Shown in pieces: positions 6,286-22,207 of a DNA stretch of 64,000 nt. Below the pieces are notes generated by a model that ran no database searches, was not told the origin of the DNA, and saw nothing but the letters and a program-made list of their open reading frames with translations. The DNA is from Flavobacteriales bacterium. GTDB taxonomy: Bacteria; Bacteroidota; Bacteroidia; Flavobacteriales; JABDKJ01. The position numbers were made by a program, and so were the translations under genes. The DNA lies in contig JABDKJ010000076.1 of NCBI GenBank assembly GCA_013002285.1, positions 27,073 to 91,072 of the forward strand, read 5' to 3'. The first letter of the stretch is position 1; every line of letters starts with the position of its first letter.

Positions 6286-7689
6286 ATGAGTAAAGAACAC
6301 AAAGATATTTCAAGAAGAAAGTTTTTAGGGCAGGCAAGTTGTGCAGCTTTAGGAACGACTACACTTTTTTCATCTCTATTGAATATGAAGGCGCTGAATG
6401 CAGCAGCCATAGATAATTCATCTCTTCAAATGGGCTACAAAGCGATGGTTTGTTTATTGCTGGGAGGCGGAAACGATTCATTCAATATGCTTATTCCGAG
6501 AGGAAATACCGAGTATGCGCAATATTCGCTTACAAGGTCAAACCTTGCGATCCCTCAAAACAATATTCTAGGGATAAACGCCCTTAACCCGGATGGGCAG
6601 CTTTATGGTGTCCATCCTTCAATGCCTCAAGTGCAACAACTTTTCGCTAGCGAGAGACTTGCGTTCCTGACCAATATTGGAACTTTGGTCGAGCCAACGA
6701 ATAAAGCACAATACTATAGTGGGATCCACCCATTACCATTAGGATTGTATTCACACTTTGATCAGACTCAACAATGGATGACAGGTAGACCGCATGAGAG
6801 ATCGAGCACGGGGTGGGGTGGTAAGATCGCAGATCTTGTACAATCTCTAAATTCTAGTCAGAACGTATCGATGAACATTTCACTAAGTGGAACAAATGTG
6901 TTTCAACAAGGGAATGATGTAATAGAGTATGTGATCGATCAGGAAGGTGCAACAGGTATTTTGGGATCTGATCCAGATGGTTGGTTGTTTGAGCAACTCA
7001 CTACCCAAGCCGTTGACAATATGTTGGATGCTTCCTATCAAGACATTTACAAAAAGACATATGTCAACACAATGAAACAGTCGAGGGACGCAACTGCAGA
7101 TTTCACAGAAGCTATTGAGGCAACGGATGATCTTTTGACAGTTTTCTCCGAGAATGACCTTTCCCAAAGTTTTAGGATGATCGCTAAATGTTTGCAGGCA
7201 AAGGATGATCTGGGTTTTGAACGTCAGATCTTCTTTATAAACTTTGATGGTTGGGACCATCATGATGAGGTGTTATTAGCTCAAGAGAATATGCTTGGAC
7301 AACTAGATGCGGCACTTGGAGAGTTCAACGCTGTATTGGAAGAGCTAGGAATGATAGATGAAGTAACAACCTTCACGATCTCTGATTTCGGAAGGACATT
7401 GACATCTAATGGCAATGGAACAGACCATGCCTGGGGTGGAAATGTGATGGCGATGGGGGGAGCTGTGAAAGGGGGAGATATCTACGGACAATATCCTTCA
7501 TTAGAATTGGACAACCCATTGGAAGTGGGTGGAGGAGTATTAATACCAACACTTTCGGCAGACCAATATTTCTCCGAATTAGGTCAGTGGTTCGGTGTGT
7601 CAAATTCAGACCTCAATGAGATCTTCCCTAACGTAATTCAGTTCTCAGACCTGAATGATGGACCACCAATTGGATTTATGAATATTTAA
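6286..7689 (+). CDS. DUF1501 family protein with Tat-like signal
   Basis: DUF1501 proteins belong to the alkaline-phosphatase-like/sulfatase-related superfamily; their substrate is not established. The N-terminus carries SRRKFLGQASCA, a twin-arginine export motif (residues about 9-20), followed by a hydrophobic h-region. The metal-site-like segments of the family are visible: LLLGGGNDSFNMLIP near residue 58, FINFDGWDHHDEV near 318, and TISDFGRTLTSNGNGTDHAWGGN near 365, including the conserved DFGR and the late His. 467 residues. It sits between DUF1800 and a T9SS cargo gene, the common Bacteroidota arrangement. Confidence 0.9.
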   Translation: MSKEHKDISRRKFLGQASCAALGTTTLFSSLLNMKALNAAAIDNSSLQMGYKAMVCLLLGGGNDSFNMLIPRGNTEYAQYSLTRSNLAIPQNNILGINALNPDGQLYGVHPSMPQVQQLFASERLAFLTNIGTLVEPTNKAQYYSGIHPLPLGLYSHFDQTQQWMTGRPHERSSTGWGGKIADLVQSLNSSQNVSMNISLSGTNVFQQGNDVIEYVIDQEGATGILGSDPDGWLFEQLTTQAVDNMLDASYQDIYKKTYVNTMKQSRDATADFTEAIEATDDLLTVFSENDLSQSFRMIAKCLQAKDDLGFERQIFFINFDGWDHHDEVLLAQENMLGQLDAALGEFNAVLEELGMIDEVTTFTISDFGRTLTSNGNGTDHAWGGNVMAMGGAVKGGDIYGQYPSLELDNPLEVGGGVLIPTLSADQYFSELGQWFGVSNSDLNEIFPNVIQFSDLNDGPPIGFMNI

Positions 7690-7700
7690 TATTAGAGACC

Positions 7701-8456
7701 ATGAAAAAGCTAGTATTCATCGCTTCGGCAATTCTAATGATCCAAGGCACTGCATATGCGCAATGCTTTGAAGACCGTCATAATGGAAATTGGTTTGATG
7801 GTTGGGTCTCTTGCACGCCCAGCGACAACCCCAATCCGGCTCGTGGTGAGAGTCATTGGATATTTTATGACCTACACCATACATACTCTCTGGGTGAGAG
7901 TAGATTTTGGAATTACAACGACCCGTCAAATACTGATCGCGGACTGGATCAGGTTGCGATAGACTATTCTACAGATGGTGTTAATTGGAATCAATTGGGT
8001 ATATATAATTTCCCAGAAGCACCTGGTATAAGTACTTATGAAGGTTTTGAAGGGCCAGATCTTGGTGGCGTGTTCGCCAAGTACATCTTAATTACCGCGG
8101 GGAGCAATCATGGCGGTGATTGCTATGGCTTAAGCGAATTACGGATACAGGTGGAGGATGTGATCATTTCAGATGTCACAGAGATCGAAGACAATGGTTG
8201 TATGAATGTGATCGTGTATCCAAACCCTTCTTCGATCGACTTTACTGCAAAGATCACTTCGCAATGCCCAGAGATCATCGTTTGGGATCTTTATGACGCT
8301 CAAGGTAAACTAGTCGTTAATGGAAGAACCAATGCCTCAGTAGAGGAAAACTTCATTGGGATCGATGCAAATGACTTTCCCGGTGGGCTTTATCATTTGG
8401 TATTGAGACAAGGAAATTCGATCGTTAGAAAACCGCTGATCAAATTGCCGGAATGA
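7701..8456 (+). CDS. Exported protein with T9SS type A sorting domain
   Basis: 251-residue surface or secreted protein. Signal peptide about residues 1-20 (ending AYAQ). Residues 22-155 look like a galactose-binding/discoidin-type beta sandwich (HWIFYDLHHTYSLGESRFWNYND, then a DGVNWNQLG turn), suggesting carbohydrate or surface binding. The last 80 residues are a T9SS type A sorting domain: VYPNPSS, LYDAQGKLV, and the FPGGLYHLVLRQGN strand near the end. It starts 11 bp after DUF1501, so it is the third gene of that operon. The 3' end is only 6 bp from the convergent gene at 8463. Confidence 0.82.
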   Translation: MKKLVFIASAILMIQGTAYAQCFEDRHNGNWFDGWVSCTPSDNPNPARGESHWIFYDLHHTYSLGESRFWNYNDPSNTDRGLDQVAIDYSTDGVNWNQLGIYNFPEAPGISTYEGFEGPDLGGVFAKYILITAGSNHGGDCYGLSELRIQVEDVIISDVTEIEDNGCMNVIVYPNPSSIDFTAKITSQCPEIIVWDLYDAQGKLVVNGRTNASVEENFIGIDANDFPGGLYHLVLRQGNSIVRKPLIKLPE

Positions 8457-8462
8457 TCGAGC

Positions 8463-8717
8463 CTAATATTTCTTCAAGACCTTGATCATTAGAATGAACA
8501 AGAACATTAAAAGGGGAATGGAGAATGCAAATGCCAAACCATAGGTTTTGGTAAATAGTACTCCAACTAAAACGAAGGCTAAAAAACCACCCACGAAAAT
8601 AATTGCTTTGTGAATGTTACTTTTTTTGTGATAGTCAAGGAATATCAACAGGACACTGAAAGCACCTACGATCGAACCAATAGCAGCAAAGATTTGTAAC
8701 AGGCCGGACATGGCCAT
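8463..8717 (-). CDS. Small three-helix membrane protein, unknown function
   Basis: 84 residues, almost all hydrophobic: three probable membrane helices (about 5-26, 37-56, 60-80), with a basic loop HKKSNIHK after the first and a C-terminal KVLKKY. No family recognised. It starts 14 bp after the stop of the exported protein upstream, so it is probably the last gene of the long minus-strand operon. It could alternatively be an independent small gene, but codon use and hydrophobicity are consistent with a real protein. Confidence 0.6.
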   Translation of the reverse strand: MAMSGLLQIFAAIGSIVGAFSVLLIFLDYHKKSNIHKAIIFVGGFLAFVLVGVLFTKTYGLAFAFSIPLLMFLFILMIKVLKKY

Positions 8718-8731
8718 AAGATACTAAGAGA

Positions 8732-9496
8732 TCAGAAACCGGTGCTAAATAAATTACGCGCTCCCTTCAATCCACATTTTTGAAATTTGTTGTAAGCCTG
8801 TGCAGCACTTTCTTTCAGGGATTTATTATTCAACCAAGCCCTGAGTGCGGCTTCCAAAGTATAAGCTTCAGGAGCCATTAAATGAGTGGTCCACAGAACG
8901 GGGATCGCTCCAGATCTTTTGAACTCAATCGCAAAATAGTCTTTGCTGAAACAGGCGAGAACTATTGCATCTATATCTTTTACTGGAGCATTGTATTTCA
9001 CGTTCACCGAAAAGTCCATCAATCCATCATGACCGATATAGGCTACAAGATCAGAATTACCGCCAAACATGAATTTATTAGACCTGTATTCTATCATTTT
9101 CTCTCCTTGACCATTGCTAGATCTTAAGAACTGCTCGGTGCATGACTTGATCTTTGAACCATCATATGCTTCTGCTAAAAGGTAAAAATCTTGCGAACTA
9201 TGTTTGTATAGAATGGCATCAAGTATTTCAGGATCTTTGGGTTCTATGTCCTTTATCTTTTGCCAATCATGTGAAATGTTCTTGAAGTATGATCGGAGGC
9301 CGAACATAGCTCCCCAATACAGATTTTTATCAGGGTCTTGACCATTTCCCAATTGGGTAGGTACGGGTACAATTCCTTGGTTATCATTGTGGCACAAGGC
9401 AACATAGACGTGAATGAACCGGGTTTGAGAAAAACTCTGGAGCGAAAGAAATAAAATGATAAAGAGTAGAATGGCGTCTTTGTACAAACTCTTCAT
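8732..9496 (-). CDS. Exported protein with possible caspase-like (clan CD) His/Cys dyad
   Basis: 254 residues; signal peptide about 1-23 (hydrophobic, ending SFSQ), so exported. No named family recognised. Three features resemble the caspase/legumain/CHAT fold: a first strand RFIHVYVALCHNDNQG (26-41), a strand ending VAYIGHDG with H156, and a strand IDAIVLACFSKDY with C182. The spacing and order, GH-x-G then hydrophobic-A-C-x-S, are those of the clan CD catalytic dyad. The tail (IPVLWTTHLMAPEAYTLEAA) also resembles the helix region of that fold. This is a motif-level inference. It starts 35 bp after the GT4 gene. Confidence 0.62.
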   Translation of the reverse strand: MKSLYKDAILLFIILFLSLQSFSQTRFIHVYVALCHNDNQGIVPVPTQLGNGQDPDKNLYWGAMFGLRSYFKNISHDWQKIKDIEPKDPEILDAILYKHSSQDFYLLAEAYDGSKIKSCTEQFLRSSNGQGEKMIEYRSNKFMFGGNSDLVAYIGHDGLMDFSVNVKYNAPVKDIDAIVLACFSKDYFAIEFKRSGAIPVLWTTHLMAPEAYTLEAALRAWLNNKSLKESAAQAYNKFQKCGLKGARNLFSTGF

Positions 9497-9531
9497 ATAA
9501 CTATAACGCTGTTGATCATCCGCGTTACAGC

Positions 9532-10623
9532 TTATAGCTCAAGAAATGTTATAAGCTCATCAATGACAACAGAAAGCTGAAATTTCGCCTCTACTCTCGT
9601 GCGTCCAGCTTTGCCCATCTCATTCATCAAAGTATTATTTGAGATGAGTTTTTCTATCCCATCTGCAAGGTCTTGTGCTTTGGTTTGCTTTATTAATATA
9701 CCAGTTTCCCCATCTGAAATGATCTCTGGATTGCTAGAGCAGTCAAATGCGACAACTGCTTTGGATGCTGCCATAGCCTCGACAATAGCGTATCCAAATC
9801 CTTCCCAAAGAGATGGAAGAACAAATAGATCTATGCTTTTTAAGAAGCCTTCTATCTCAGTAACGAATCCTTTTAATTCTATTCTATCTTGCAAGCCAAG
9901 TGATATTATCTGTTCTTTGACCTGTTTTGCTAAAGGACCTGTCCCTGCAATAAGTACTTTCAAGTCATGACCTTTGTCGACAAGTATCTTTGTGGCATTG
10001 ATCAGATGATACTGTCCTTTTTGTTCGGTTAGTCTTCCTGCAGTTCCGATCACGATCTCATTACCTTTCTTGATGTATGCTGCTTTTTGTTGCTCGGCTG
10101 CATGATCATATGCACCAAGGTCTATACCATGATAGATCACACCCGTTTTGTTCTTTATGGTGTCCTCATTAAAATTACCCAAGATCATTCGTTTGGTCTC
10201 TTGAGAATTCGCGATCAAGTGGGTCATGGCTCTTTTGAGCAAGTATGAATTGATGAAATTCTTTTTTATTGGAACGGCAAGCCCTCTTAAGTAGATGACT
10301 CGTTCGACATCAACTTTATGTGCAGAGATGCCACCGACTTTGGCATCTTGCGAGGTCGTAAAAAATACCGTGTCTATTTTTTCATTTTTAAAAAAGCGTT
10401 TGACTTTTCTGTATTTAAAAGGGTTTAGAAATGAAAGGTTCTTTAACTTCAGACTATGAGTTTTGATCTTGTGAGCATTTGCTTCCATTTCCAGGGGAGA
10501 TTTGGGAGCGCAAACCATATAGACATTGTATCCTCTTTCTTTGAATTCAAGGGCGTATTCCAAGTGTAGTTTTTCACCTCCACCCCAAAAAGAAACTGTA
10601 TTAAAGAAACAGATGTTTTTCAC
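9532..10623 (-). CDS. Glycosyltransferase family 4 (GT-B fold)
   Basis: 363-residue retaining glycosyltransferase, presumably cytoplasmic and transferring a sugar to a lipid or polysaccharide acceptor that cannot be read from sequence. N-terminal Rossmann domain (FFNTVSFWGGGEKLH, residues 6-20). C-terminal donor domain with IGTAGRLTEQKGQYHLI near residue 192 and the EX7E-type motif in LWEGFGYAIVEAMAASKAV near residue 273. Placed 42 bp after the UbiA prenyltransferase gene. The pair could build a prenyl-linked glycolipid, but that is inference. Confidence 0.88.
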   Translation of the reverse strand: MKNICFFNTVSFWGGGEKLHLEYALEFKERGYNVYMVCAPKSPLEMEANAHKIKTHSLKLKNLSFLNPFKYRKVKRFFKNEKIDTVFFTTSQDAKVGGISAHKVDVERVIYLRGLAVPIKKNFINSYLLKRAMTHLIANSQETKRMILGNFNEDTIKNKTGVIYHGIDLGAYDHAAEQQKAAYIKKGNEIVIGTAGRLTEQKGQYHLINATKILVDKGHDLKVLIAGTGPLAKQVKEQIISLGLQDRIELKGFVTEIEGFLKSIDLFVLPSLWEGFGYAIVEAMAASKAVVAFDCSSNPEIISDGETGILIKQTKAQDLADGIEKLISNNTLMNEMGKAGRTRVEAKFQLSVVIDELITFLEL

Positions 10624-10665
10624 CTTGGCGAATATAGAGCAATAATGGAAATTCTCTTTTTAGTA

Positions 10666-11532
10666 TCAGGGGATGTGTACGAGACACCCGCTCCACCACA
10701 CATAGATCATGCTAGCAATTGCTATTCCATTGGAAGCATACGCGAATAGTTTCATTTGAGCAAGGGTGTACATCTTGGTCTTAAAAAGTACGAGAAGATC
10801 TAAGATCAACCATAACAATGCAGCACTTAAGAACAAAGCAAACCAAAATTCCTTGAAGTAGTATCCAACAATAATGATCTCGGATAGAACCACAGCCATG
10901 ATCAATACTTTGGTCTTGCTCATTCCCAATTGTGTGGCTGTCGTTTTTCTACCGCTTTGCATGTCGGGTTCAATGTCCATTACCTCGCCCATTAGATGGG
11001 ATTGCATTGCGAACAAGAAAAGATAGAGATAGGTCAAGAACGGAAGTGGATCGGTTTCATTCAATGTGATGCTTAATGGAACGATGAGCAGATAACCTAT
11101 TTGTGCGATCAGTTCTAAAGGCGGTCTTGAACGTAAGCCATTCTTCGGAAGATTATATAGTGCGTTCACCAAAATAAACAGTGCGAAGATCAAGAGCACT
11201 TTCCAATTGCTCATAAAAACAAGGGGTGTGAAGAAGAGTATCTGGCTCCAGACAATGGGTTTCCAGAGAACGCTTAATTGACTTTCCATTCCTTTCGCTC
11301 CAAACCAAAAATTACCCTTTCGTTTGTTTGCCTTATCGATCTCTCTATCTACAATGTCATTCCACCCATAGACGACAAAATTCAGTGGGAAACTAACGTA
11401 AAAAATACCATACCAGAATTCAAAATTGCTCCAAACGCTTTGTATCTGACTAGTAGGAAGAAGATATAGCCAAAGTGCTGCAAACCAGAGGCCTGGGCGT
11501 GAAACTTGCAGGAAGAATAGGAATTTTTTCAT
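10666..11532 (-). CDS. UbiA-family prenyltransferase
   Basis: 288-residue integral membrane prenyltransferase with about eight helices. First Mg-diphosphate motif NDIVDREID (N58, D59, D62, D66). The second motif, MDIEPDMQSGRKTTATQLG, lies at about residues 184-202. UbiA members attach isoprenoid chains to aromatic or other acceptors (ubiquinone, menaquinone, carotenoid, chlorophyll pathways). The acceptor here is unknown, since no quinone or carotenoid genes are adjacent. It follows EcsC with 3 bp between, so co-transcription is likely. Confidence 0.88.
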   Translation of the reverse strand: MKKFLFFLQVSRPGLWFAALWLYLLPTSQIQSVWSNFEFWYGIFYVSFPLNFVVYGWNDIVDREIDKANKRKGNFWFGAKGMESQLSVLWKPIVWSQILFFTPLVFMSNWKVLLIFALFILVNALYNLPKNGLRSRPPLELIAQIGYLLIVPLSITLNETDPLPFLTYLYLFLFAMQSHLMGEVMDIEPDMQSGRKTTATQLGMSKTKVLIMAVVLSEIIIVGYYFKEFWFALFLSAALLWLILDLLVLFKTKMYTLAQMKLFAYASNGIAIASMIYVWWSGCLVHIP

Positions 11533-11535
11533 GGA

Positions 11536-12336
11536 TCAGACCTCATCAAAAGCTTGTTCGATGATTTTTTTTCCGTACTTCCTTTCTAATCTTCTCACTA
11601 CAAAGTGTCCCCTAGCGATGTCTTGAAAATGAGAAATAAAAAGTGTGTTCACGACAGCACCACCGACAGCACCAACAACAGGTATTGCCTGTGCGGCTGC
11701 TTTCTCTGTGATCACGATAGAGAACCTTTCAGCAATAGAGCTAATGAACTTTACGATTATAGGAGCACTTGAGCCTTTTAGTCCATGTTCTGCTACAAAC
11801 TTTGCAGCAGCATTTATAGAGCTGTTCAAAGCTGCTCGAACCGCGAAATACCCAGATTCTGTGCCGTCATCTCCGGCCGTTGGTCCGCCTAAAGCGAATA
11901 CTTCCATGCAGGCCAATTTGGTTCCAATGTCAGATATATTTTCCCCTTCGCTTCTCGCAATGTCTGCTATCGAGCGTATCATAAGAGTTGTGGATATCGG
12001 AAGTTCTACTGCTAAGGCGGCAAGTCCAAATGTTCCACCGACCCCACCTGAGACAGCAACCGAAAGTTTATGAAGGATATCAGAAGACTTTTGGGTGCTC
12101 TTGTCTTTCATCGTGAACACAGCTGCGTCAGCAGCTTTTGTGAGAGCAAGAGTAGACGCTTCCATTATCTTATTGGATACCTTGTCCGGTAAATTGGTCA
12201 TAAAGGCTTCAATAGGAGTTCCTATTAAGCTAGAGATACGAGCTGCTAAGCTCATACGAGTCAACTGTTTCTTGGCTAAGGTCAGATCTTCAAGGTCCCT
12301 GGAACTTAGATCATTTTTCTTTACCTCTGAACTCAT
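11536..12336 (-). CDS. EcsC family protein
   Basis: 266 residues matching the EcsC family, first known from Bacillus EcsC; its molecular function is unresolved. The body is rich in Ala/Gly helical stretches (SVAVSGGVGGTFGLAALAVELPI, near residue 90, and AAAQAIPVVGAVGGAVVNTL near 213) that look membrane-inserting or amphipathic rather than classical TM helices, plus ISTTLMIRSIADIARSEGE typical of the family. Its ATG overlaps the TGA of the 3-TM protein gene (12333-12336), so translation is coupled. Confidence 0.85.
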   Translation of the reverse strand: MSSEVKKNDLSSRDLEDLTLAKKQLTRMSLAARISSLIGTPIEAFMTNLPDKVSNKIMEASTLALTKAADAAVFTMKDKSTQKSSDILHKLSVAVSGGVGGTFGLAALAVELPISTTLMIRSIADIARSEGENISDIGTKLACMEVFALGGPTAGDDGTESGYFAVRAALNSSINAAAKFVAEHGLKGSSAPIIVKFISSIAERFSIVITEKAAAQAIPVVGAVGGAVVNTLFISHFQDIARGHFVVRRLERKYGKKIIEQAFDEV

Positions 12337-14072
12337 TGAGATAAGCTATCAGTTGTGAGCAAACTATCACTCTCGTTCAATTGAATAGGCTCTGTGCTTT
12401 CGTTCAAGATACCTTCTTGTCCCTGCATGTCTCTCCTCATTAATTTTCGTTGGGTGATCACTCTTTGCTGGATCTTTGGAAGCCATCTTTCGGGATACAC
12501 ATCTTCACCTTTTAAAAGAATAATTATGTCATCATATTTAGCATGGATCAAATAGAGTTCGGCTTTAGTAGAAGTGCTCTCCCTATTCTGACCTCTCACG
12601 GTCAATATATTAGCCAAATAGAACATCTCTGGTTCCGGGTCATCTGGAAAAACATAGGTATAATAGGGCCTTTCGCCACCTGGAATAAACGTTCCGCCTT
12701 CCTTTCCGCCAACCCAATTATAGCTTTTGTCGTCTTCCATTATCTTCTCTACTACTACACTCATTCCTTTGTAACCGCTTCGTTCTATATTGTCCACTCT
12801 GTCATAAACATAAATGGTGTCCGTGTTAGAACCAGGAATGAAAACGTCCATGGAAAGCCCATATTTGGTTGAATCATATGGCTCTAATTCTAACCAATAG
12901 AAAAGTCCTGACCCCGCTTGTGGAGAGCCGGTTTTTTCAAAATTGAATTGCTCAATAACTGGAAGACTGCTGAAAGCATTTTTTAGTTGAGGGATCCTGT
13001 GGTCATTCTCATGATTACCAGGAAGTCCGGATGTGAATCCATATTTAAATCGGAGCGACTCACCAAAATAGAACACGGTTTTATCGTCTAACAATGCTTG
13101 TTCCTTTAGCCATGGAGTGGCCTTTACTTCATCAGCATTCAAGAATTTTCCCTTACCGGCAAATACCAATTCCAAATATGGAGTTGTACTATTGTCGAAT
13201 ATCATAACCCCGCCAAAACTAGGTTGAGGAAAAAGGAACCCTTTCCATGTGAGAATAGGAACTACCTGATAAAGTTTTCCTTTATTGTCTTTCATCCCGA
13301 TCACCATATCTGATACTTCACTGTTGAACATTTGAAGTAAGGATAATTTCTTACGAGCTGCTTTTTGGATATTGTATGAAAAGATCAGGTTGTTTCCCAC
13401 CTGAAAATCTACCGGTTCGCGTTCATATTGATCCAAAACAGGTGCCGGATTCTGAACATTTGTATGAATGAACTCTTCTACCTTTCCGCCAAATTGTTGG
13501 AAGAAATAATTTCCCGGTTCTGTCCAACCTGTCCAATATTGTTCACCCGTTACCGGGTCTAGCCAGGTCCTTGGAGAAGTTGGTTGCCTGTTGTTGTTCA
13601 TGGTCTCCTGAAAATAGGATTCCACAACGAATTGCGGTTGGAGTTTTGGGTGGATCGAGATCGGTGGTTTGTCCAGTTCTATGATCGTTACACGATTCTT
13701 ATACACGTAATAGGAACTGATGTAATTGTAGATGCCATTGCCAAACTGATATATGAATAAGCAGAACAAAGCGAATACTGCTATCCAAATACCCCTGGCA
13801 TACCATTCAGAAGCCTTTTTGAACCTTCGATAGAAAAAATAGATGATCAGTAAACTTATAATGATCAAGGGCCAATAGATCCTGACATAGACTAACAAAG
13901 GTTGATAGTCTCCACGTCCCGCAATGATGCCGTAAAGAAGTAAAAAGGGAAGTAGTCCAAAAAAGATCTTGCCCCAAGTTCCTCTTTCCTTAAATTGCCT
14001 TACATACCACTTGAAAGGTTTGAAAGATCTTTTTTTTTCTTCTATTTGTTCTCCATGGATACTCACTTTCAT
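12333..14072 (-). CDS. 3-TM protein with large predicted periplasmic domain, unknown
   Basis: 579 residues, family not recognised. A basic cytoplasmic N-terminus (KKRSFKPFKW, residues 13-22) precedes three membrane helices at about 35-52, 60-81 and 94-116. The YRRFKK loop between helices 2 and 3 is positive, so residues 117-579 should face the periplasm. That domain is mixed alpha/beta with many Trp, Tyr and Pro; no motif recognised. The C-terminus ends in a Ser/Thr/acidic tail. The gene abuts the 191-residue membrane protein upstream and overlaps ecsC by 4 bp. It is likely the outward-facing component of the cluster. Confidence 0.78.
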   Translation of the reverse strand: MKVSIHGEQIEEKKRSFKPFKWYVRQFKERGTWGKIFFGLLPFLLLYGIIAGRGDYQPLLVYVRIYWPLIIISLLIIYFFYRRFKKASEWYARGIWIAVFALFCLFIYQFGNGIYNYISSYYVYKNRVTIIELDKPPISIHPKLQPQFVVESYFQETMNNNRQPTSPRTWLDPVTGEQYWTGWTEPGNYFFQQFGGKVEEFIHTNVQNPAPVLDQYEREPVDFQVGNNLIFSYNIQKAARKKLSLLQMFNSEVSDMVIGMKDNKGKLYQVVPILTWKGFLFPQPSFGGVMIFDNSTTPYLELVFAGKGKFLNADEVKATPWLKEQALLDDKTVFYFGESLRFKYGFTSGLPGNHENDHRIPQLKNAFSSLPVIEQFNFEKTGSPQAGSGLFYWLELEPYDSTKYGLSMDVFIPGSNTDTIYVYDRVDNIERSGYKGMSVVVEKIMEDDKSYNWVGGKEGGTFIPGGERPYYTYVFPDDPEPEMFYLANILTVRGQNRESTSTKAELYLIHAKYDDIIILLKGEDVYPERWLPKIQQRVITQRKLMRRDMQGQEGILNESTEPIQLNESDSLLTTDSLSQ

Positions 14073-14073
14073 C

Positions 14074-14649
14074 TTAATTCAAGTAATCGTTTATGATATC
14101 GTTTGGATCGTCCTTTTCTTTGGCTTTTGTCTCGGGGTCAGGTTTTTCTTTTGGGGCCTCTTTCGAAGGTCCAGAACCTTTAGTCTTCTCCCTCAATTCT
14201 TCAAATCCTTTTTCACTTTCAGAGATCACCTTGTCTCCCTTTTTAAGTGCATCGTCTTTAAGGTCCACGATCTTGTTCTTGACCTTCGGCCACATGTATG
14301 ACATGATCATTGCTAAGAAAATAGCTCCTGAATGCAGAAGCCAAGCCATAGGGCCAGTGAAAATATCGAATGTGCCGGATGCCCATTTAAAATCAAAAAT
14401 GAGATCATAGACACCTCTTATCACCAGAGCAGCTAGCAATGCCAATAAGATCTTGATCCAAATAGGTTGGCGAAAGAGGATGCCTCTTGGTCCGCGATCG
14501 TCTGCAAATTCCCATCCTTTGACCTTATTCAAAATTGAGGCCAATGGCCCCTTGGGTGAGGTCTTTCTTATAGCATCCCTATATCCTAGGAACATGAAAA
14601 GTAAGAAAGATCCACCTGCGATCATTATAAATTCTATTAGTGCGTTCAT
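14074..14649 (-). CDS. 3-TM membrane protein with charged cytoplasmic tail, unknown
   Basis: 191 residues, not recognised. Helices at about 4-22, 63-85 and 100-120. The loop after helix 1 (RDAIRKT) and the region after helix 3 (KVKNK) are basic, placing both in the cytoplasm. The tail from about 121 is a charged helix followed by a low-complexity Lys/Glu/Pro stretch, ending NDIINDYLN. Such a tail could dock a soluble partner such as the AAA+ ATPase (inference). It lies between the 428-residue protein (9 bp gap) and the 579-residue membrane protein (1 bp gap). Confidence 0.75.
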   Translation of the reverse strand: MNALIEFIMIAGGSFLLFMFLGYRDAIRKTSPKGPLASILNKVKGWEFADDRGPRGILFRQPIWIKILLALLAALVIRGVYDLIFDFKWASGTFDIFTGPMAWLLHSGAIFLAMIMSYMWPKVKNKIVDLKDDALKKGDKVISESEKGFEELREKTKGSGPSKEAPKEKPDPETKAKEKDDPNDIINDYLN

Positions 14650-14658
14650 TGCGTAAGT

Positions 14659-15945
14659 TTAAATTTTGTCCATATCCAGATAGTTCTTGTATCTGGGAGC
14701 TATATAATTCACGGCCCATTGTTTTTTTGCTTGAGGCCATGTTTTGTATTGATTGAAGAATTCCTCTTTATCATAGATGTATAATCTGAATACATCGTAA
14801 GGGTCGATCTTTAAGAGTATGCGCCAAATGATCCTGGTTATTCTTTTAGAGAACTCTGGGTTGGGGCGGATCAAGCGGTTGAATATTGGTTTAGGGAGTT
14901 TCCCCAGTTTGATGATCTGGCCTTTTTTGAGTTTGTTAACTACATCCTCAAACTCGAAATAATTCTCAGTTAAAAGACCAGCTTTGGTATAACGGTTCAC
15001 TCGCTGCCTGATCTGAGGTGCAGTTAATGCGCTAACATCAACATCTGGCTCTTCTTTGAAAATGACATTAGCTAATTCTAGGAACATCAATCTTTCAATG
15101 TCCTCGACTTGCCTAAAAATCGTGTCTGCATAAACACCAATGATATTCTTGTCAATGAGGTAGTTTTTTAGTTTAGGGTCTTCAAGATTGTATTCCATGT
15201 GGTGAGCAGCTTGCCCTCTGATCTCATCTCCTTTCTGTGAATATTTCTCGTAAATCAGCACAGGCTGTCTGAGTCCTGCAAGTTTTCGAAGCAGAAATAT
15301 CCCATCAAATGCCCTCGTGTAAAAGCTATCGACCTCCATGAACGTAATATCAGGGAGAAGGAATTTCTTGTTTGCAAGCACCCCATATTCTTGATAACTG
15401 TTACGCAGTTTATTTCTCAAAGAGGTATCAGCCCAGGCATATTCTTCATCATAGAACTTTCGTTCCATTTGCAATTGCAGTTCTTTTGCTTCCGAAAGCT
15501 TATCTACAGTTGAGAAACGCATCGTAAAATATTCTATGCCCAAAAGATCTTCAGGCGATCTATAAGATGAGATCTCCTGATCACATTCCACAACTATCGC
15601 TGTGCGCATAGTAAGCTCATGTATCTGATCTTCTAACTCATCAAAGATCATTTGAATAATGTACTTGTCGAAAGAATGATATGGCATGTAAACAGGCACA
15701 TTCTTTTGTTTAGGAGTTATGATCAAAGCATATGGATTTGCCAAGCCATGCGATAGGTAAAAGTCATCTTCCTTTTCTATCGCCACTTCTGGAGACCACC
15801 CCCAACCGTCAATAGAAAAGCTCTTGAGCTTTGTTGGTTCAATTCCTAGAGACTCCAACGCACCATTGTATCGATCGATCTGGGTCTTTGTCCTGATCTC
15901 GATCATACCCTTGCGGTAAAGGTCATATTCCTTGAGTAGCTCCAT
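14659..15945 (-). CDS. Conserved-looking cytoplasmic protein of the AAA+ cluster, unknown
   Basis: 428 residues, no signal peptide or membrane helix; not recognised. The middle (about residues 195-290) alternates strands and helices, with LLPDITFMEVDSFYTRAFDG and RQPVLIYEKY. A segment near residues 310-335 (APQIRQRVNRYTKAGLLTENYF) looks like a winged-helix-type recognition element, but this is only shape. The C-terminus is rich in aromatic and basic residues. Its start codon immediately follows the AAA+ stop codon (15946), so the two are probably made in fixed ratio. Confidence 0.72.
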   Translation of the reverse strand: MELLKEYDLYRKGMIEIRTKTQIDRYNGALESLGIEPTKLKSFSIDGWGWSPEVAIEKEDDFYLSHGLANPYALIITPKQKNVPVYMPYHSFDKYIIQMIFDELEDQIHELTMRTAIVVECDQEISSYRSPEDLLGIEYFTMRFSTVDKLSEAKELQLQMERKFYDEEYAWADTSLRNKLRNSYQEYGVLANKKFLLPDITFMEVDSFYTRAFDGIFLLRKLAGLRQPVLIYEKYSQKGDEIRGQAAHHMEYNLEDPKLKNYLIDKNIIGVYADTIFRQVEDIERLMFLELANVIFKEEPDVDVSALTAPQIRQRVNRYTKAGLLTENYFEFEDVVNKLKKGQIIKLGKLPKPIFNRLIRPNPEFSKRITRIIWRILLKIDPYDVFRLYIYDKEEFFNQYKTWPQAKKQWAVNYIAPRYKNYLDMDKI

Positions 15946-17928
15946 TTATGATGAGAAAAGCTTTGGTTCTATTTCTTCGGCTTTCTCAATAGCCTTTCTA
16001 TTTACAATGTATTGTTCTGTCTGTTCTTTGATCTTTCTATCTACTTCAGAATTTTTTATGGAGATCAATGAAGAAGCCTGTTTTACCATTTCCTGATACC
16101 AGATCTTATATAGGTTTACCTTCTTTGCTCGTTCTCTTTTTAGGTCTGTCAATATCCCAAGTCTATCATCATAGGCTTTGTCAAAGAACAAAGATCTCTT
16201 TTCGAAAAAGTCCGTTGGAATATCAAAATCCATCAATATGAAATCTACTGCACTATGCACATTTCTGTCTTCACGTGCAGTCCAGTATTCGTATTTGTCG
16301 CTCATGAGATCTTGGAACATAGCAAAGAACCTTGGGTCGCTTTCTTTGTCGTATCTCGCGGATGCTTTTTCTACGATCTCACGCACTTCTGGTCTGATGA
16401 TCGTTTCGTCAAATTTGATCTCGCTCAAATATTCTGGAATATCCATGGAGTCTTCATATTCTTTTCTTTCTGGAAGTTTTTTTCCAAGGATCCCTGGTAC
16501 TTGCTTCTCGTGCGATCTCCACCAGAGATAGTCCAAAGCAAGAAAGTCTTCATACGTTTTAGGGCCTCCGAGCAAAACACGTGATTGCACTCTGGATAGA
16601 ATAGCAGCATCTAGAACCTCAGGCAGGTTAGTGAAGATCTGGATAAAGTAATTTCCATTGTTCACAGCTGTCGCCCCTTCAGTCATTGTAAGGACTGAAC
16701 TTACTACGTGCCCTTGTCCTTCTGAACTTCCTTGCCTTGCCCTATCACCCAATAGATTCTCGCAGTCATCCCAAGGAGAGTAGGTGATCACATTTGGGTT
16801 TTTCAATCTGCGATCGAAGACTTCCATCTTTTTGGCAGTCTCACCTTGCAGGCTAGAGATGACCGTTCGAGGCAATGGAAGCATTACAAAAGGAACACCG
16901 ATATTATCAGCCCTTTCTTTTCCATAGTTGAAAGAAGCAGCGATCAACATGGATTTTCCAGTTCCTGGAGGTCCATATTTCATTGTAAAACCTGGGAGAC
17001 CTCCCAATTCCATCCAAGGGTTTTTCTTCAATTCTATGTCATAGCAAAGAAGACGGTCAATCTGTCTCATGTTGCTTTTTCTTCCTTCGGAGTTTGCAAC
17101 GATGTCTGACATTTGGATGTTCTTGACCTCAACTTGAGAATGGCTTCCAAATGAAGCGCGTTCAAAGCCTTCGATGATGAAACCAGTATCTCCGTACTTG
17201 TATCTCTTGGTCGTGAAAAAATCTATGTACTGACTTACCTCTATCTCAGATTCAATGATGTCCAGGATGCGTTCGTAATAGATCAATGCTGCCTTTACAA
17301 ATGCTTTTGTGTCGTTTACCTTGTTGGATTCTTTTACGAATTTCCCAAAATGATAAAGCGAAGAGTTCATTGCATTGACACTCCCGTTCAAACTTATGGC
17401 TGGGTTTTCATCCAGGCTCATCACAAGAGCAGCAACATCGTCTTGTTTATATTGATCTAGTTTCCAAACGATGTAATTGGCAGATACATGAAGTAGTATT
17501 CTTGCTTGAGTAACTTTCTTTTCTTCTAATTCATTCTTGTCGTCTTCGTTCAGGTCGCCCTCGGCTTTTGCTTCAATTTTTAGAAGGCCTGAAGACTTTC
17601 TGTATTGCTTTGCGACATAGGTGCCAAGAGCTAGTCCGTTTTGAATTGCATTTAAAACGATACTTGCATCTTCATTTAGGAGATTCGTGTTTTGACTAAG
17701 TGTCTTTCCTAGACCTATCATTGAAATACTCGCTTGGCCTATCGCACCTGTTCCGCCAAAGACCTTTCTTCTGGCGAGAATGCTGCTTCCTACATCATCA
17801 GCCGAACTCACCATGCTGGCAGCTTTTTTTGCATCTGTCCATTTTACTTCATGCAATAAGCTCCCGACAACCTCCTTGATCTGGTCCAGGTCCGCGTCTG
17901 TAATGGGTATGAATGATCTGTCTGCCAT
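15946..17928 (-). CDS. AAA+ ATPase with altered Walker B, cluster motor protein
   Basis: 660 residues. A helical N-terminal region of about 290 residues, of unknown family, precedes one AAA+ module. Walker A is GPPGTGKS at 319-326. The Walker B region reads VITYSPWDDCENLLGDR: aligned to the classical form, D387-D388 replace the usual Asp-Glu and the preceding strand is broken by Pro. The sensor-1 Asn is N434 in IFTNLPE, and R446/R450 in ILSRVQSR fall where arginine-finger residues lie. This matches classical (FtsH/Cdc48/Vps4-like) AAA proteins more than ClpX types. No membrane helix or protease domain is seen. Nucleotide binding is likely; hydrolysis may be slow or use Asp. Confidence 0.85.
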   Translation of the reverse strand: MADRSFIPITDADLDQIKEVVGSLLHEVKWTDAKKAASMVSSADDVGSSILARRKVFGGTGAIGQASISMIGLGKTLSQNTNLLNEDASIVLNAIQNGLALGTYVAKQYRKSSGLLKIEAKAEGDLNEDDKNELEEKKVTQARILLHVSANYIVWKLDQYKQDDVAALVMSLDENPAISLNGSVNAMNSSLYHFGKFVKESNKVNDTKAFVKAALIYYERILDIIESEIEVSQYIDFFTTKRYKYGDTGFIIEGFERASFGSHSQVEVKNIQMSDIVANSEGRKSNMRQIDRLLCYDIELKKNPWMELGGLPGFTMKYGPPGTGKSMLIAASFNYGKERADNIGVPFVMLPLPRTVISSLQGETAKKMEVFDRRLKNPNVITYSPWDDCENLLGDRARQGSSEGQGHVVSSVLTMTEGATAVNNGNYFIQIFTNLPEVLDAAILSRVQSRVLLGGPKTYEDFLALDYLWWRSHEKQVPGILGKKLPERKEYEDSMDIPEYLSEIKFDETIIRPEVREIVEKASARYDKESDPRFFAMFQDLMSDKYEYWTAREDRNVHSAVDFILMDFDIPTDFFEKRSLFFDKAYDDRLGILTDLKRERAKKVNLYKIWYQEMVKQASSLISIKNSEVDRKIKEQTEQYIVNRKAIEKAEEIEPKLFSS

Positions 17929-17935
17929 ATCTAAA

Positions 17936-19057
17936 TTATATTGCTACTAAATTGTCTCGAAGAGGGGTTATTATTTTAATCATTTTTGGATCGTCTAAAA
18001 GCAACTGTACAACAGTATGAGGAGCTATCAGGTATTTATTGATGTCCGATACTTTTCGCCTACTACATTCAGGGTCATCTTTGTTGATGTGGAATTTTTG
18101 CAATGGAGTTTTAGAGCTGATCCAATTGGCCTTTATCAATTCTTCTTTAACTGATGCTATTACCTCTTCCTCGTAATAAACGATGAAATGATCTTTTGTT
18201 AATTTATGACGTTTATGGAACTTGCTAAACGCATGCTCATCTTTTGAATATGCTCCATATAAAGGCCCGATATCATATTTCTTTAGGAGTTTTGGATGCA
18301 AGAATGGCATTTCCTGATCCATAAAAGAGATGATCTCATAACAACTCTTGGACCCCATTGCAACACTTTCTAAAATGTCTACAAATAGTTTGAAATGCTC
18401 GTTGGTTTTATCAAATTTTTCAGCTCCTCCGCTATATTCAAAGTCCAATACATAGACCATTGGCCTGTTAGTGGCCATGTCATAGGTAGACCAGGAATAG
18501 ATCAGTGAACGTCTTCCATTTTCTTTTATTCCTATTTCCATCATCTTTCCAGTGTTGTACATCAAATAGATCGCAGAAGGGATCAGATTATTGAAGTACT
18601 TCCTCTTTGAAAGAGCATCTAGTATTTCGTATGGTTCTTCTTTTTGGCTGCGAAGTTTAGATATCAAACGGTCTTTCAAGACGAGAGCATTCGGTAGATT
18701 GGCAATGAATTGTTCCTTGAGGTTATAGTCAGCTTTCATCTGCCTCAATTCAGCATGATTGGGAAAGCTTGAATCCGTAAGATCTATGCGAACGCTATGA
18801 GAGAGGTCGTACTGATATTTTAGATTGAGAAGTTCAATGCTCCGCTGCAAACGGGTTATGAAGAAAGTTATAACTGAACGTTCGACCTTTTTGTTTGAAG
18901 TCTCATTGAGTCTGGTCACAAAATGTTCGTTAAGCGCTTTGAATGCTTTCTTTACATAAATGAAATAGTCTAAGTATTCTTCCTTCCTCTCAAATTCTGT
19001 GCTGTCCAGTTCGCCAAAACCAGCATTGCCCATAATTTCTTCAAGCTCACTGACCAT
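17936..19057 (-). CDS. Cytoplasmic protein of the AAA+ cluster, unknown
   Basis: 373 residues; no signal, membrane helix or motif recognised. The first 150 residues are mostly helical (YFIYVKKAFKALNEHF; FFITRLQRSIELLNLKYQY). The central part has strand-rich segments (NGRRSLIYSWSTYDM; RPMVYVLDFEYSGG). Near 285 comes HKLTKDHFIVYYEEEV, and the end is Pro/Asp rich. It starts at ATG 19057, 32 bp after the coiled-coil gene, and ends 7 bp before the AAA+ gene, so it is very likely an adaptor or partner of one of them (inference from position only). Confidence 0.72.
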   Translation of the reverse strand: MVSELEEIMGNAGFGELDSTEFERKEEYLDYFIYVKKAFKALNEHFVTRLNETSNKKVERSVITFFITRLQRSIELLNLKYQYDLSHSVRIDLTDSSFPNHAELRQMKADYNLKEQFIANLPNALVLKDRLISKLRSQKEEPYEILDALSKRKYFNNLIPSAIYLMYNTGKMMEIGIKENGRRSLIYSWSTYDMATNRPMVYVLDFEYSGGAEKFDKTNEHFKLFVDILESVAMGSKSCYEIISFMDQEMPFLHPKLLKKYDIGPLYGAYSKDEHAFSKFHKRHKLTKDHFIVYYEEEVIASVKEELIKANWISSKTPLQKFHINKDDPECSRRKVSDINKYLIAPHTVVQLLLDDPKMIKIITPLRDNLVAI

Positions 19058-19089
19058 ATTTCAATTTTCTAGTATTCAGCATTTAAATA

Positions 19090-20466
19090 TTAACCGAGCA
19101 TATCGCTTAACTCTTCATTCGTACTCTTTTTTCCACTATCAGCAGAATCTTCAGAACTTGCTGCTTCCCCTTTTCTATTGTCGACTATATAGTTGCCATC
19201 GGAGTCTATACCATAGTGGTCCTTAAGTTTTTCATTTGCTTCTATACTCCGCCTTGCAAACTCCCTTTGCTTGTCCATTAAGACTTTTGCAACTTCATCC
19301 AAAGTTTGTAGCCTTGCACCTTGTGATTCTACTCTTTCTAACCTTGCTCTTTGCGAACCAACAGTAGCTTGAGCTAACATTTCTGCACTTCTTTCATCTG
19401 TCTTAACTCCAGCTTTTTCAAATGTGCTTGTCACTTTCTGATATGCTGCTGCTCGCAAAGATGTTATTGTAGCTGCATAGAATGATTCTCTCTCTTTAGT
19501 ATCCGACTTAAGTGCTGCAAGATCTGCCTTTAAGTTCTTCTTCTGGGTTTCAAGTGCTTCTATTGCAATAGAGTGTAATTCCACGAATCGTTCTTTAGAG
19601 TTGTAGATGGAACGAGCTACTTCAAAATTCCCTTGCTGTTCTGTTATGCTTTTCTGAACCTCTTCTACATCTCTTTGCTTAGAGGTATGCTCAGGGGTGC
19701 CAGGTGTCAATTCTGCCAATTCTTCCAATTTAGACTGGAGTAGTGACTTTAATTTTTCAATGTCGGCTTCAACCGTTTTCATTGCAGTTGCAGCTTGCTC
19801 TTGCAATTCAAAGGCATCTTTTTGTGATACTGTTACAGCCTGTAATTCCTCATCCACACTAGACATTTTGCCTTGAACAAAATTGGTGATCATCGTTACG
19901 ATGGTGATCATCCTTTCAAGATGTTTTTCCAAAGGCTCATTTTCCAAACGTTCCTGGTGATGCGCTCTTGCTCTTACTCCCTCACTTTCTAGAAGCTTTG
20001 TTGCCGCATCAACTTCTTCTTTTGCTTTAAGGATCTTGTTCTTTCTTCCCCATAGATTGTTCCACCAATTGTCTTTAACGCCTTCTTTTTGTTCGAGTTC
20101 TTCTTTGGCGGCATCTAAAGCGCGTTGCGCTTTATCTATCCAACCTTGCTCTTCGTCATTGAGGTCGCGAATATCTTCAAAACCAACACCTATTTCATCT
20201 AGAAGGTTTTGCAGCGCAGACATGACCTTAGCCAAATTAGACCCGAATTTCTTCTCGTTCTGTAAAACAGAATCAGTGGTTGCATTAATGATGGCTTCCG
20301 CATCTACTGCGCTTTCTATCTTTTCTAATTGTTCCTTGGTTTTGCTCATGACGCTTCCAACACCGATCTCCGCTTCGTCAAGAGTCTTTTTAACTCGAGA
20401 AGCTAAACTTCCAGCGTCAGAACTGCTGTTCTTAATTTCATCAAATAGGTCATTAATATCACTCAT
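19090..20466 (-). CDS. Long coiled-coil protein, first gene of the AAA+ cluster
   Basis: 458 residues, almost entirely charged helix with heptad character from about 90 to 420; no signal peptide or membrane helix. A short Trp-rich break (DNWWNNLWGRK) sits near residue 132 and a loop (ELTPGTPEHTSK) near 255. The C-terminal 30 residues are a Ser/Asp/Glu linker ending NEELSDMLG. The shape resembles polymerising long-helix families (PspA/ESCRT-III, TelA), but I see no specific signature of any of them. ATG 20466 (MSDINDLF) is chosen over an upstream in-frame TTG/ATG because the extra 19 residues are not protein-like. Confidence 0.75.
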   Translation of the reverse strand: MSDINDLFDEIKNSSSDAGSLASRVKKTLDEAEIGVGSVMSKTKEQLEKIESAVDAEAIINATTDSVLQNEKKFGSNLAKVMSALQNLLDEIGVGFEDIRDLNDEEQGWIDKAQRALDAAKEELEQKEGVKDNWWNNLWGRKNKILKAKEEVDAATKLLESEGVRARAHHQERLENEPLEKHLERMITIVTMITNFVQGKMSSVDEELQAVTVSQKDAFELQEQAATAMKTVEADIEKLKSLLQSKLEELAELTPGTPEHTSKQRDVEEVQKSITEQQGNFEVARSIYNSKERFVELHSIAIEALETQKKNLKADLAALKSDTKERESFYAATITSLRAAAYQKVTSTFEKAGVKTDERSAEMLAQATVGSQRARLERVESQGARLQTLDEVAKVLMDKQREFARRSIEANEKLKDHYGIDSDGNYIVDNRKGEAASSEDSADSGKKSTNEELSDMLG

Positions 20467-20583
20467 ATTTATATTTTGGTTTAGTCCGATCCAACGATTA
20501 CAATAACTTGAGGGGAGGAGCATAGGTTATATCTTCTGTAGCCCTTAAAGTCAGGTAAGATCGTTCAATTTTTACCTTGCTAA

Positions 20584-20591
20584 CAAATGTA
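20584..20591 (-). promoter_or_regulatory. Candidate -7 element for the AAA+ cluster operon
   Basis: On the minus strand the sequence is TACATTTG, a perfect match to the Bacteroidota -7 consensus TAnnTTTG, about 118 bp upstream of ATG 20466. No convincing -33 TTTG is seen at the usual distance. It is the only good candidate upstream of the eleven-gene run. Confidence 0.45.
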
Positions 20592-20691
20592 TAATTTATA
20601 TTGAATTTTGGGCTTTGAATAGGATGAACGGGGTGAAAATATTATAAGTGCGTTTAAAGAGCAATTCATTTGCGAATGAGGAACTTTAGGG

Positions 20692-20724
20692 CAAAAAAAA
20701 ACCGCTCTCTTTTCAGAAAGCGGT
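20692..20724 (-). terminator. Rho-independent terminator of the gene at 20746
   Basis: Read on the minus strand, the stem AACCGCTTTC / GAGAGCGGTT with a short loop is followed by nine T residues. It lies about 22 bp downstream of the stop at 20746. It also separates that gene from the AAA+ cluster promoter region. Confidence 0.88.
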
Positions 20725-20745
20725 TCTCATTTTTTTAGTGTTAGA

Positions 20746-22074
20746 TCATCTTTGACGATCCACTAGGATCTTTTCAGTTTTAACTGTGATCCCGTTGCTA
20801 ATAGATAGGATGTAGAATCCTTCCTCTAATTCAGAAGTGTTCAATTTTATTCTATTCATAAAGTTCATGTGCTTTTCTATCATGAGGTTTCCTTCAAGAT
20901 CGCTCAATTGAACTGTAATTTCTTCCTCTTGTCCGCTTCCTACTTCTACAAAGATCTGTCCATTTGTAGGATTTGGATAAATGTGTGTATCTACAATACT
21001 AGGAACATCCAAGAAAGTGTCTGCCAGAATGTTCGAGAATTGGTCCGTACCGATCGCTGTTAGTCGATAATACGTGTCTCCAGTTACGTTATGTGCATCA
21101 GTAACTTTATAAGTTTGAAGAAAGTCTCCGCCTTTAGCATCAGATCTTGCAGCTCTACTCCAGGTTACTTGATCCATTGATCGTTCAACGATAAAATGCT
21201 CACAGTTTTGTTCATTACCTGTTTTGAAATTGATCGTTGCTTTCTTTCCAGATCTAATTATGTCAAAACTCATTATTGAAGCGTCAGGACCGAATGTATT
21301 TCTCAAGGTTGTGACTTCGGCTTCATCAGTTGATACAATCTCTGACGAAAGATCTATGATCGCATTAGCTAATATATTTGTGCTGTTATCCGTGAATACC
21401 ACATCTATTTGATATTGAACAACGGCCTCTGGCGATGTGTGATCTACAAATGAATAATCAGTTTTCATTTCAATATTTCCAGTTGCTCTTTGCTTCACCA
21501 ATGGCATCCAATCACCTGGACTAACCCTACGTTTAATAACGAAGTGATCTGCGAAATTTTCGCTTGTCGTTTGCCAAGTTAGACTAACCATTCCGTTTTT
21601 CTCTTTTGCAGTGAATGAAGCTACATCGCAGATAGCAAGTGCTCTAGAGCTTCCCATTTCTGGGCTTGGTCTTGTAGAAAGAACTTCGCTAAAAGTTCCT
21701 GTATTTTCGTTTGAAACTGTATAAATGGATTCAGTGGCAAGCTCTGTTTTTTGATCATTGCCATTCAGGTAACTTAATCTGTAAGAAACCATGTTAGAAA
21801 AACTTCCTTGGTCAAAGAATTCATAAGAAGTTACCATGTCGATCCCACCCGTGGCGTCCACTTTTCCAAGCTTCACCCAGTTTTGTCCTTTGTTTGCTCT
21901 TTCTATGACAAACATGACACAATCTGATTCAGACATTGTTGTCCAGTTCAACCAAACTGCACCTTGTTGTTTCTCAACTCTAAAATCGGCTAAGTCGACA
22001 GCAGCATAGGAAACAGTGGTCATTAAAATGGCGATAGCGCCAATAAATAGTTTTTGAGTAATTGTTTTCATCAT
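20746..22074 (-). CDS. Exported protein with three FN3-like repeats and T9SS type A sorting domain
   Basis: 442 residues from ATG 22074 (MMKTITQ); a longer frame from TTG 22095 is less likely because the signal peptide begins here. Signal peptide about 1-25 (ending SYAA). Three similar beta-sandwich units start near residues 27, 155 and 271, each with the pattern V-x-L-x-W-x-T...FVIERS...W, as in FN3/Ig-like surface repeats. The last 85 residues form a type A T9SS sorting domain (IYPNPTNGQIFVEV, LSDLEGNLMIEK, EEGFYILSISNGITVKTEKI). Probably a surface-attached or released protein; function unknown. Confidence 0.85.
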   Translation of the reverse strand: MMKTITQKLFIGAIAILMTTVSYAAVDLADFRVEKQQGAVWLNWTTMSESDCVMFVIERANKGQNWVKLGKVDATGGIDMVTSYEFFDQGSFSNMVSYRLSYLNGNDQKTELATESIYTVSNENTGTFSEVLSTRPSPEMGSSRALAICDVASFTAKEKNGMVSLTWQTTSENFADHFVIKRRVSPGDWMPLVKQRATGNIEMKTDYSFVDHTSPEAVVQYQIDVVFTDNSTNILANAIIDLSSEIVSTDEAEVTTLRNTFGPDASIMSFDIIRSGKKATINFKTGNEQNCEHFIVERSMDQVTWSRAARSDAKGGDFLQTYKVTDAHNVTGDTYYRLTAIGTDQFSNILADTFLDVPSIVDTHIYPNPTNGQIFVEVGSGQEEEITVQLSDLEGNLMIEKHMNFMNRIKLNTSELEEGFYILSISNGITVKTEKILVDRQR

Positions 22075-22184
22075 CTGTTTTTTCGTTCTACACAAAGTGT
22101 TTTGCTCTTATGTACGAACATGCCCAACGAATGTTTCGATGGATAACAGATAAAACTCTACGAATTGATCAAAAAATTTGACAA

Positions 22185-22200: not shown

Positions 22201-22207
22201 GATGGTT

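Follow-up and report, generated by a model that had tools for sequence, protein, structure and literature searches.

We analysed a 64,000-nucleotide stretch of DNA from a Flavobacteriales bacterium (contig JABDKJ010000076.1, positions 27,073 to 91,072 of the forward strand; hereafter the window) and found that the gene cluster on its minus strand at 20466-8463 is a real, conserved operon, of which only the first six genes form the conserved unit. These six genes encode an AAA ATPase, three other cytoplasmic proteins and two membrane proteins. The operon is undescribed as far as the open-access literature and our family comparisons reach, and the system as a whole fits no family tested. The reading that we favour, with a probability of about 45%, is that the AAA motor, working via two cytoplasmic adaptors and exchangeable membrane anchors, remodels a scaffold of coiled-coil protein at the inner membrane. 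The conserved genes and the names used for them here are as follows.

19090..20466, minus strand: CC, 458-residue coiled-coil protein, soluble; its gene opens the conserved core
17936..19057, minus strand: B373, 373-residue cytoplasmic protein of the conserved core, no named family
15946..17928, minus strand: AAA, 660-residue AAA ATPase of the conserved core (PF00004)
14659..15945, minus strand: DUF6638 protein, 428 residues, conserved core (PF20343)
14074..14649, minus strand: M191, 191-residue membrane protein of the membrane module
12333..14072, minus strand: M579, 579-residue membrane protein of the membrane module

A scan with the DUF6638 alignment of one genome per species (GTDB r220) gave 343 relatives, and the best 80 were kept as survey loci. 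This sample, chosen by DUF6638, is skewed to similarity, comes mostly from Flavobacteriaceae and leaves out the nearest relatives of the window (DUF6638 57-82% identical). Counts by family profile were made on stop-to-stop frames because the gene caller drops overlapping genes (L039, L012); the profiles include the surveyed loci, whose members match by construction, and the window proteins alone were also searched in all frames of the 80 loci. By family profile, all six genes were present in 72 of the 81 loci made up of the 80 relatives and the window, and the window's own five proteins, M191 set aside, also matched 72 of 81. Singly, the window proteins matched 74 (CC), 74 (B373), 77 (AAA), 80 (DUF6638, by choice), 76 (M579) and 8 (M191) of the 80 loci. 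Order and strand were identical in all 69 loci scored, which were those where the gene caller found all six genes, window included, and some intervals within them were as long as 4 kb. The pairwise distances of the six genes correlated at r 0.95-0.99, a value that shared species history alone would also raise. The co-conservation of the first six genes is far beyond chance.

The initial annotation of the window had proposed an eleven-gene system and had named a neighbourhood survey as the test that could refute it. The cluster that it described, with an unusual AAA ATPase at its centre, a coiled-coil partner and membrane anchors, is borne out as the six-gene unit, while the extent of the system is not, since the last five genes (EcsC, UbiA, GT4, and those of a 254- and an 84-residue protein) each matched 0 of the 80 related loci in any frame. 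Nine of the 81 loci fell short of six genes. Five of these (L009, L018, L019, L061 and L065) sit at contig or locus ends, L067 has its AAA gene 8 kb ahead of DUF6638, where the fetched stretch ends, L013 has DUF6638 alone beside a contig end, L014 has no CC, B373 or AAA beside DUF6638, and L015 is without M191 and M579. An apparent DUF6638/AAA fusion in L019 was rejected, as the single open reading frame crosses a stretch of N. Some taxonomic labels of the surveyed loci look doubtful: the Saccharospirillaceae label of the metagenome-assembled genome (MAG) of L014, whose phylum sample yields the same four other matches as that of a Winogradskyella, the Paceibacterota label of L001, whose AAA is 58% identical to that of the window, and the Patescibacteria labels of L016 and L017.

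In the window the DUF6638 gene follows directly on that of AAA (gap 0), and a NUDIX gene of one cluster occurs in 32 of the 80 loci, always (32/32) between these two. Genes for four-helix-bundle proteins were found in 16 of the 80 loci, mostly between core genes; the NUDIX and four-helix-bundle names each come from one representative. Such genes lie within the operons of L025 (9326-9922), L080 (11321-11677) and similar loci, many of them in Flavobacteriaceae. The commonest flanking cluster was ettA, named from one representative (NCBIfam), which was present at 47 loci by cluster and, as a full-length member, at 42 of the 80.

We then searched plasmid records with the AAA protein by tblastn, and this gave 11 records from Vibrio and Rhizobiaceae, six of which were examined (V. 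vulnificus, V. parahaemolyticus, S. meliloti Ak57, Sinorhizobium K101, Shinella and R. leguminosarum). Family profiles found CC, B373, AAA and DUF6638 in the same order in all six, with E-values of at worst 8e-17, 2e-41, 9e-83 and 5e-39, respectively, and 3e-109 at best, while M191 and M579 had no match in the stretches examined. By these profile matches, the four cytoplasmic proteins are the core common to both branches, that of the window and the proteobacterial one. A DUF2333 membrane protein follows DUF6638 in three of the four rhizobial records, and mfd follows it in both Vibrio records; a search for DUF2333 in seven non-rhizobial genomes gave 0/7 and, having no positive control, is uninformative. 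The pair of M191 and M579 occurs in Bacteroidota, Verrucomicrobiota and one Desulfobacterota genome, and all six genes are present in L039, a complete Desulfobacterota genome. Desulfonema likewise has the core of four genes but not the membrane pair. The complete genome of Desulfonema magnum (G002) has no M579 match genome-wide and keeps AAA, B373 and DUF6638, and the membrane module is therefore exchangeable; a fragmented Desulfobacterota MAG (G010), also without an M579 match genome-wide, is a weaker case.

AAA and B373 remain together in genomes with a broken operon. In G005 and G010 (the genomes of L014 and L013) the two genes adjoin each other on a separate contig, and assembly gaps may contribute to the split; in G098 and G322 they are found about 9-12 kb upstream of DUF6638. 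They were neighbours in all four such genomes, in a search of which CC was not part. Of 7,997 candidates scored with a DUF6638 profile built from three proteins (Sinorhizobium, Vibrio and one other), at least 1,750 matched at E 0.001, and most named proteins among the 120 matches listed are rhizobial. Phylum samples contained few: 5 of 395 Bacteroidota genomes around a Winogradskyella, centre genome included, and only the centre genome in the samples around Desulfonema (297) and Pelagicoccus (240).

Three of the "plasmid" records in PLSDB (L091, L099 and L101) are chromosome-sized at 3.5-4.6 Mb, and the "pSymB" record of S. meliloti Ak57 is probably the chromosome. In this strain (L091, about 11392-13137) a small gene with an endonuclease domain, together with an ISRm16 element, separates AAA from DUF6638, and a TonB-dependent heme-type receptor flanks the operon. 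We take choX to be SMc02737 in S. meliloti. The heme receptor ShmR of S. meliloti 1021 is SMc02726 according to passages of PMC8343143 and PMC2848241, and, because a heme-type receptor flanks the L091 operon, a weak lead would place the operon of strain 1021 at about SMc02729-SMc02734, with numbering inferred from gene order. A ChvI-bound fragment lies inside SMc02733, in a 27-clone screen most of whose fragments are intragenic, as given in a part of PMC3687685.

The AAA protein matched PF00004 at 44.5 bits (gathering cut-off 21.2, E 2.7e-11), as did 30 of 30 family members match Pfam AAA. At E 0.01 these 30 members gave AAA (30) and a weak NPHP3_N match (13) as their only Pfam families, with none of the MIT, Vps4 C-terminal, p97 N-domain or lid families, and no Pfam family covers the roughly 300 residues before the single AAA domain. 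Residues ~263-459 matched p97, Vps4 and others in a single-sequence search; the best solved relatives are p97/VCP-type ATPases, and AAA is the only one of the six core proteins with solved relatives. The alignment rests on single-sequence searches because the profile of the AAA alignment gave no match under 1e-6 against the PDB.

The landmarks of the window protein are Walker A at 319-326, pore loop 1 at about 360-362, Walker B at D387-D388, sensor 1 at N434 and the arginines R446/R450. We compared 84 AAA sequences drawn from the two branches, each site having one or two gaps. Walker A (GxPGTGK) was present in 82, the Gln-Gly of pore loop 1 in 83, with an aromatic residue before it in 81 of 83, Asn434 in 83, and Arg446 together with Arg450 in 83. 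The Walker B Asp-Asp was present in all 83 sequences reaching the site, and Asp388 stands where p97-type ATPases carry the catalytic Glu. When a Vibrio protein was aligned with a VCP-like ATPase, the second Asp fell over the Walker B Glu and the pore loop, aromatic-Gln-Gly, over that of p97; the window protein's own alignment is gapped in the Walker B and pore-loop region and does not settle the placement. We infer that the second Asp does the catalytic work of the Glu, and the exchange of Glu for Asp suggests slow or gated ATP hydrolysis, which would befit a switch-like remodeller more than a fast unfoldase. The retention of this Asp across the two branches poses AAA enzymology a mechanistic puzzle.

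These features also bear on an extractor or quality-control unfoldase of the Cdc48/Msp1 kind, in which AAA would pull damaged or mis-inserted inner-membrane proteins, with M191 and M579 or DUF2333 as receptors and CC and DUF6638 as cofactors. The p97/VCP-type relatives, the pore loop (aromatic-Gln-Gly in 81 of 83) and the presence of membrane partners would fit such a machine. The Walker B Asp and the lack of a p97 N-domain or lid family in the 30 AAA members argue the other way, as does the lack of a protease or ubiquitin-like Pfam family among the core genes, and the invariant long coiled-coil partner is left unexplained. We consider this explanation unlikely.

The proposed scaffold protein is CC. 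Its AlphaFold2 model (pLDDT 61) has long helices at 179-251 and 258-376, none of the 74 CC proteins has a membrane segment, and the CC proteins of the two branches are certainly related to each other (98.8% in profile-profile comparison). No Pfam match to PspA_IM30 or Snf7 was found among 34 CC members at E 0.01. Profile-profile comparison with PspA gave 60.4% (E 8.4e-5) at CC 179-393, and proteobacterial CC alone gave 36% in a compatible register. Controls were far lower, with at most 7.2% for reversed sequences, 8.3% for heptad-block shuffles (57 of 60 gave a result), 0.8% for 11 coiled-coil proteins, of which seven are single sequences and hence weak controls, and 0.4% for 32 unrelated families. 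Rebuilt alignments, however, shifted the best match to CC 57-121 at 56.1%, and the registers disagree. The kinship of CC with PspA/ESCRT-III is only suggestive, because the match moves to another part of CC on realignment. TelA (PF05816) was rejected as a relative of CC, with no Pfam match in 34 members and hhalign values of 0.5% (against a single TelA sequence) and 0.2% for proteobacterial CC; none of the papers listed for TelA was relevant.

If the kinship held, the operon might encode a bacterial ESCRT-like system, with CC as a very divergent PspA/ESCRT-III relative that has its own AAA motor, two adaptors of new fold and exchangeable membrane proteins coupling it to the periplasm. We regard this bolder version as doubtful; if true, the system would stand as an independent counterpart of ESCRT-III/Vps4 in bacteria.

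The DUF6638 protein matched PF20343 at 120.2 bits (cut-off 27), and its confident AlphaFold2 model (pLDDT 91.6) had no PDB match by Foldseek/VIA among the families that VIA-align lists. Profile searches of the PDB with CC, B373, DUF6638, M191 and M579 gave only weak or coiled-coil matches. M579 has three membrane segments, as do 75 of 76 members of its family, and a C-terminal domain of about 460 residues that is predicted to be periplasmic. M191 shows two hydropathy segments, the second of a length that would suffice for two, and its charged tail is predicted to lie in the cytoplasm; the initial description of both as three-segment proteins thus fits M579 and, on this crude hydropathy count, fits M191 if its second segment spans the membrane twice. 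M191 is weakly conserved (11-22% identical to its family), and its position in other loci is held by a family of membrane proteins of about 180 residues that a common profile joins to it.

In the scaffold-remodelling machine that we favour, CC would build a coiled-coil scaffold under the cytoplasmic membrane and AAA hexamers would pull on it or disassemble it. B373 and the DUF6638 protein would be adaptors presenting CC, or a client, to the motor, and M191 and M579 would anchor the machine, with the large periplasmic domain passing on the state of the envelope. Envelope stress, division and the assembly of envelope complexes are candidate processes. By analogy, such a machine is best read as ESCRT/PSP-like in logic, and, of the earlier suggestions, that of a system remodelling or sensing the inner membrane would still be the best, if tentative, reading.

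Several observations weigh against it. Residue 360 in the pore loop of the window protein is Leu, not an aromatic residue, and L001 has Ile. The CC model is weak, with generic long-helix proteins as structural neighbours, and the CC tail by which the motor might pull is short or missing in L015, L016, L017, L039 and L062, and also in the Vibrio and Sinorhizobium proteins examined. The two Vibrio loci and L100 are without a membrane protein of these families beside the core. The membrane topology comes from hydropathy and the positive-inside rule only, and the equivalence of M191 across loci rests largely on position and family profile because the protein is so divergent.

The core might instead be an assembly factor that builds one envelope structure, such as a surface or secretion complex encoded elsewhere, with AAA as the assembly chaperone. 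A dedicated client would be in keeping with the patchy distribution (5 of 395 Bacteroidota genomes) and with membrane partners that can be exchanged. No client gene, however, stands out in the fetched flanks, where the commonest neighbour is the housekeeping ettA, and we hold this explanation to be quite improbable.

An anti-phage defence made of AAA and a coiled-coil protein, as in IetAS, shares with the operon the AAA domain and would also account for a patchy distribution, and weak IetA matches were found by PADLOC (best E 3.3e-6) and NCBIfam. The IetA match is confined to the AAA domain, at 20.4 bits against a cut-off of 510 (NCBIfam), the partners are others, no core protein matched IetS in PADLOC, and the PADLOC matches of the other five core proteins were no better than E 0.0048. 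DUF6638 was not found encoded in the phage records or viral contigs searched. The neighbourhood is stable beside ettA in 42 of 80 loci and the pairwise distances of the six genes rise and fall together, and defence is very unlikely.

The last five genes of the cluster are local attachments outside the conserved system.

11536..12336, minus strand: EcsC-family gene (PF12787)
8463..11532, minus strand: UbiA gene, GT4 gene, gene of a 254-residue exported protein and gene of an 84-residue membrane protein

The initial annotation had listed eleven minus-strand genes with gaps of 42 bp or less, and recomputation agrees: all 11 open reading frames are present at 20466-8463, with gaps from first to last gene of 32, 7, 0, 9, 1, -4, 3, 42, 35 and 14 bp. 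An alternative start of CC at 20523 would give 477 residues; that at 20466 is likelier because the seven nearest full-length relatives have 457-460 residues. The GC content of the cluster genes (0.37-0.44) is close to the 0.40 of the window. Pfam confirmed the AAA, EcsC, UbiA and GT4 identities; of the two proteins that had been left unrecognised, the 428-residue one has a Pfam name, DUF6638, and the 373-residue one is indeed without a family. CC and the 191-, 579-, 254- and 84-residue proteins likewise had no Pfam family above cut-off. A scan of 8000-20800 with the sigma-70 pattern, from which Bacteroidota promoters differ, gave 29 promoter-like sites against 30.1 in shuffles, and terminator-like sites numbered 10 against 9.0, both at chance level, which leaves the promoter proposed at first (20584-20591) no more than a candidate.

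Because EcsC overlaps M579 by 4 bp and UbiA begins 3 bp after EcsC, co-transcription of these two genes with the core is likely in the window organism. This is the one point in favour of a machine that builds and exports a lipid-linked product with UbiA and GT4, as had been proposed at first; that reading loses its basis with both genes outside the conserved unit, at 0 of 80 loci like the other three (the window's nearest relatives lying outside this sample), and we give it almost no weight. The 254-residue exported protein (8732-9496), in which a possible His/Cys dyad had been seen, belongs to no Pfam or NCBIfam family. Of the 296 Bacteroidota genomes sampled, three have a relative of it (45-57% identity), and in none of the three did the 5-6 kb fetched on either side contain another of the eleven cluster genes.

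Beside the end of the operon, on the plus strand at 4463-8456, lie a DUF1800 gene, a DUF1501 gene and a gene for a protein with Por_Secre_tail and a weak F5/8-like match. Upstream, on the same strand as the operon at 20746-23440, are a Por_Secre_tail protein gene and a ClpX-like gene.

An operon of fixed order in Bacteroidota, Verrucomicrobiota, Desulfobacterota and Pseudomonadota records points to an overlooked envelope process, and its occurrence in Sinorhizobium, which is tractable in the laboratory, makes its function directly testable. No description of the operon or of DUF6638 was found in the open-access literature (subscription journals lay outside the search), and in the part of PMC5256989 that mentions it DUF2333 appears only as the neighbour of a type VI secretion system gene, which is not relevant here. 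The papers listed on AAA proteins with coiled-coil partners deal mainly with PSP and ESCRT. The combination of genes, which the initial annotation did not recognise as a named system, matches none in the comparisons made.

With p97/Cdc48/VCP the operon shares a motor domain whose Walker A, pore loop and sensor 1 can be aligned, while its AAA protein differs in having a single AAA domain, about 300 uncovered N-terminal residues and the Walker B Asp in 83 of 83 sequences. The likeness to ESCRT-III/Vps4 and the archaeal Cdv system lies in an AAA ATPase encoded beside a coiled-coil protein, and in an AAA domain related by sequence to Vps4 and p97. The differences are that the operon's AAA has no MIT or Vps4 C-terminal domain (30 members, Pfam), reaches 20.2 bits against the NCBIfam cut-off of 650 for CdvC, that 34 CC members have no Snf7 match, and that B373 and DUF6638 are extra core partners. 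Homologs of ESCRT components are identifiable in archaea "but not in bacteria", as stated in a passage of PMC11188069.

The PSP system, in the portions of PMC11237479 that describe it, has PspA/Vipp1 with AAA, Toastrack and band-7 neighbours, and so resembles the operon in having a coiled-coil protein that works on membranes and, in some operons, AAA and membrane partners; the profile resemblance of CC to PspA (56-60%, in an unstable register) may be a further likeness. It differs in that no PspA_IM30 match was found in 34 CC members and that no DUF6638-like operon is among those described in these portions. A PspA match was also present in five of seven searched genomes holding the system, which is therefore not a plain replacement of PspA. 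If the motor works on CC, the operon would show how bacteria without Vps4 recycle membrane scaffolds, which is a gap in the PspA/ESCRT-III story, and, if CC proves PspA-like, the system would become a variant of the ESCRT/PSP kind.

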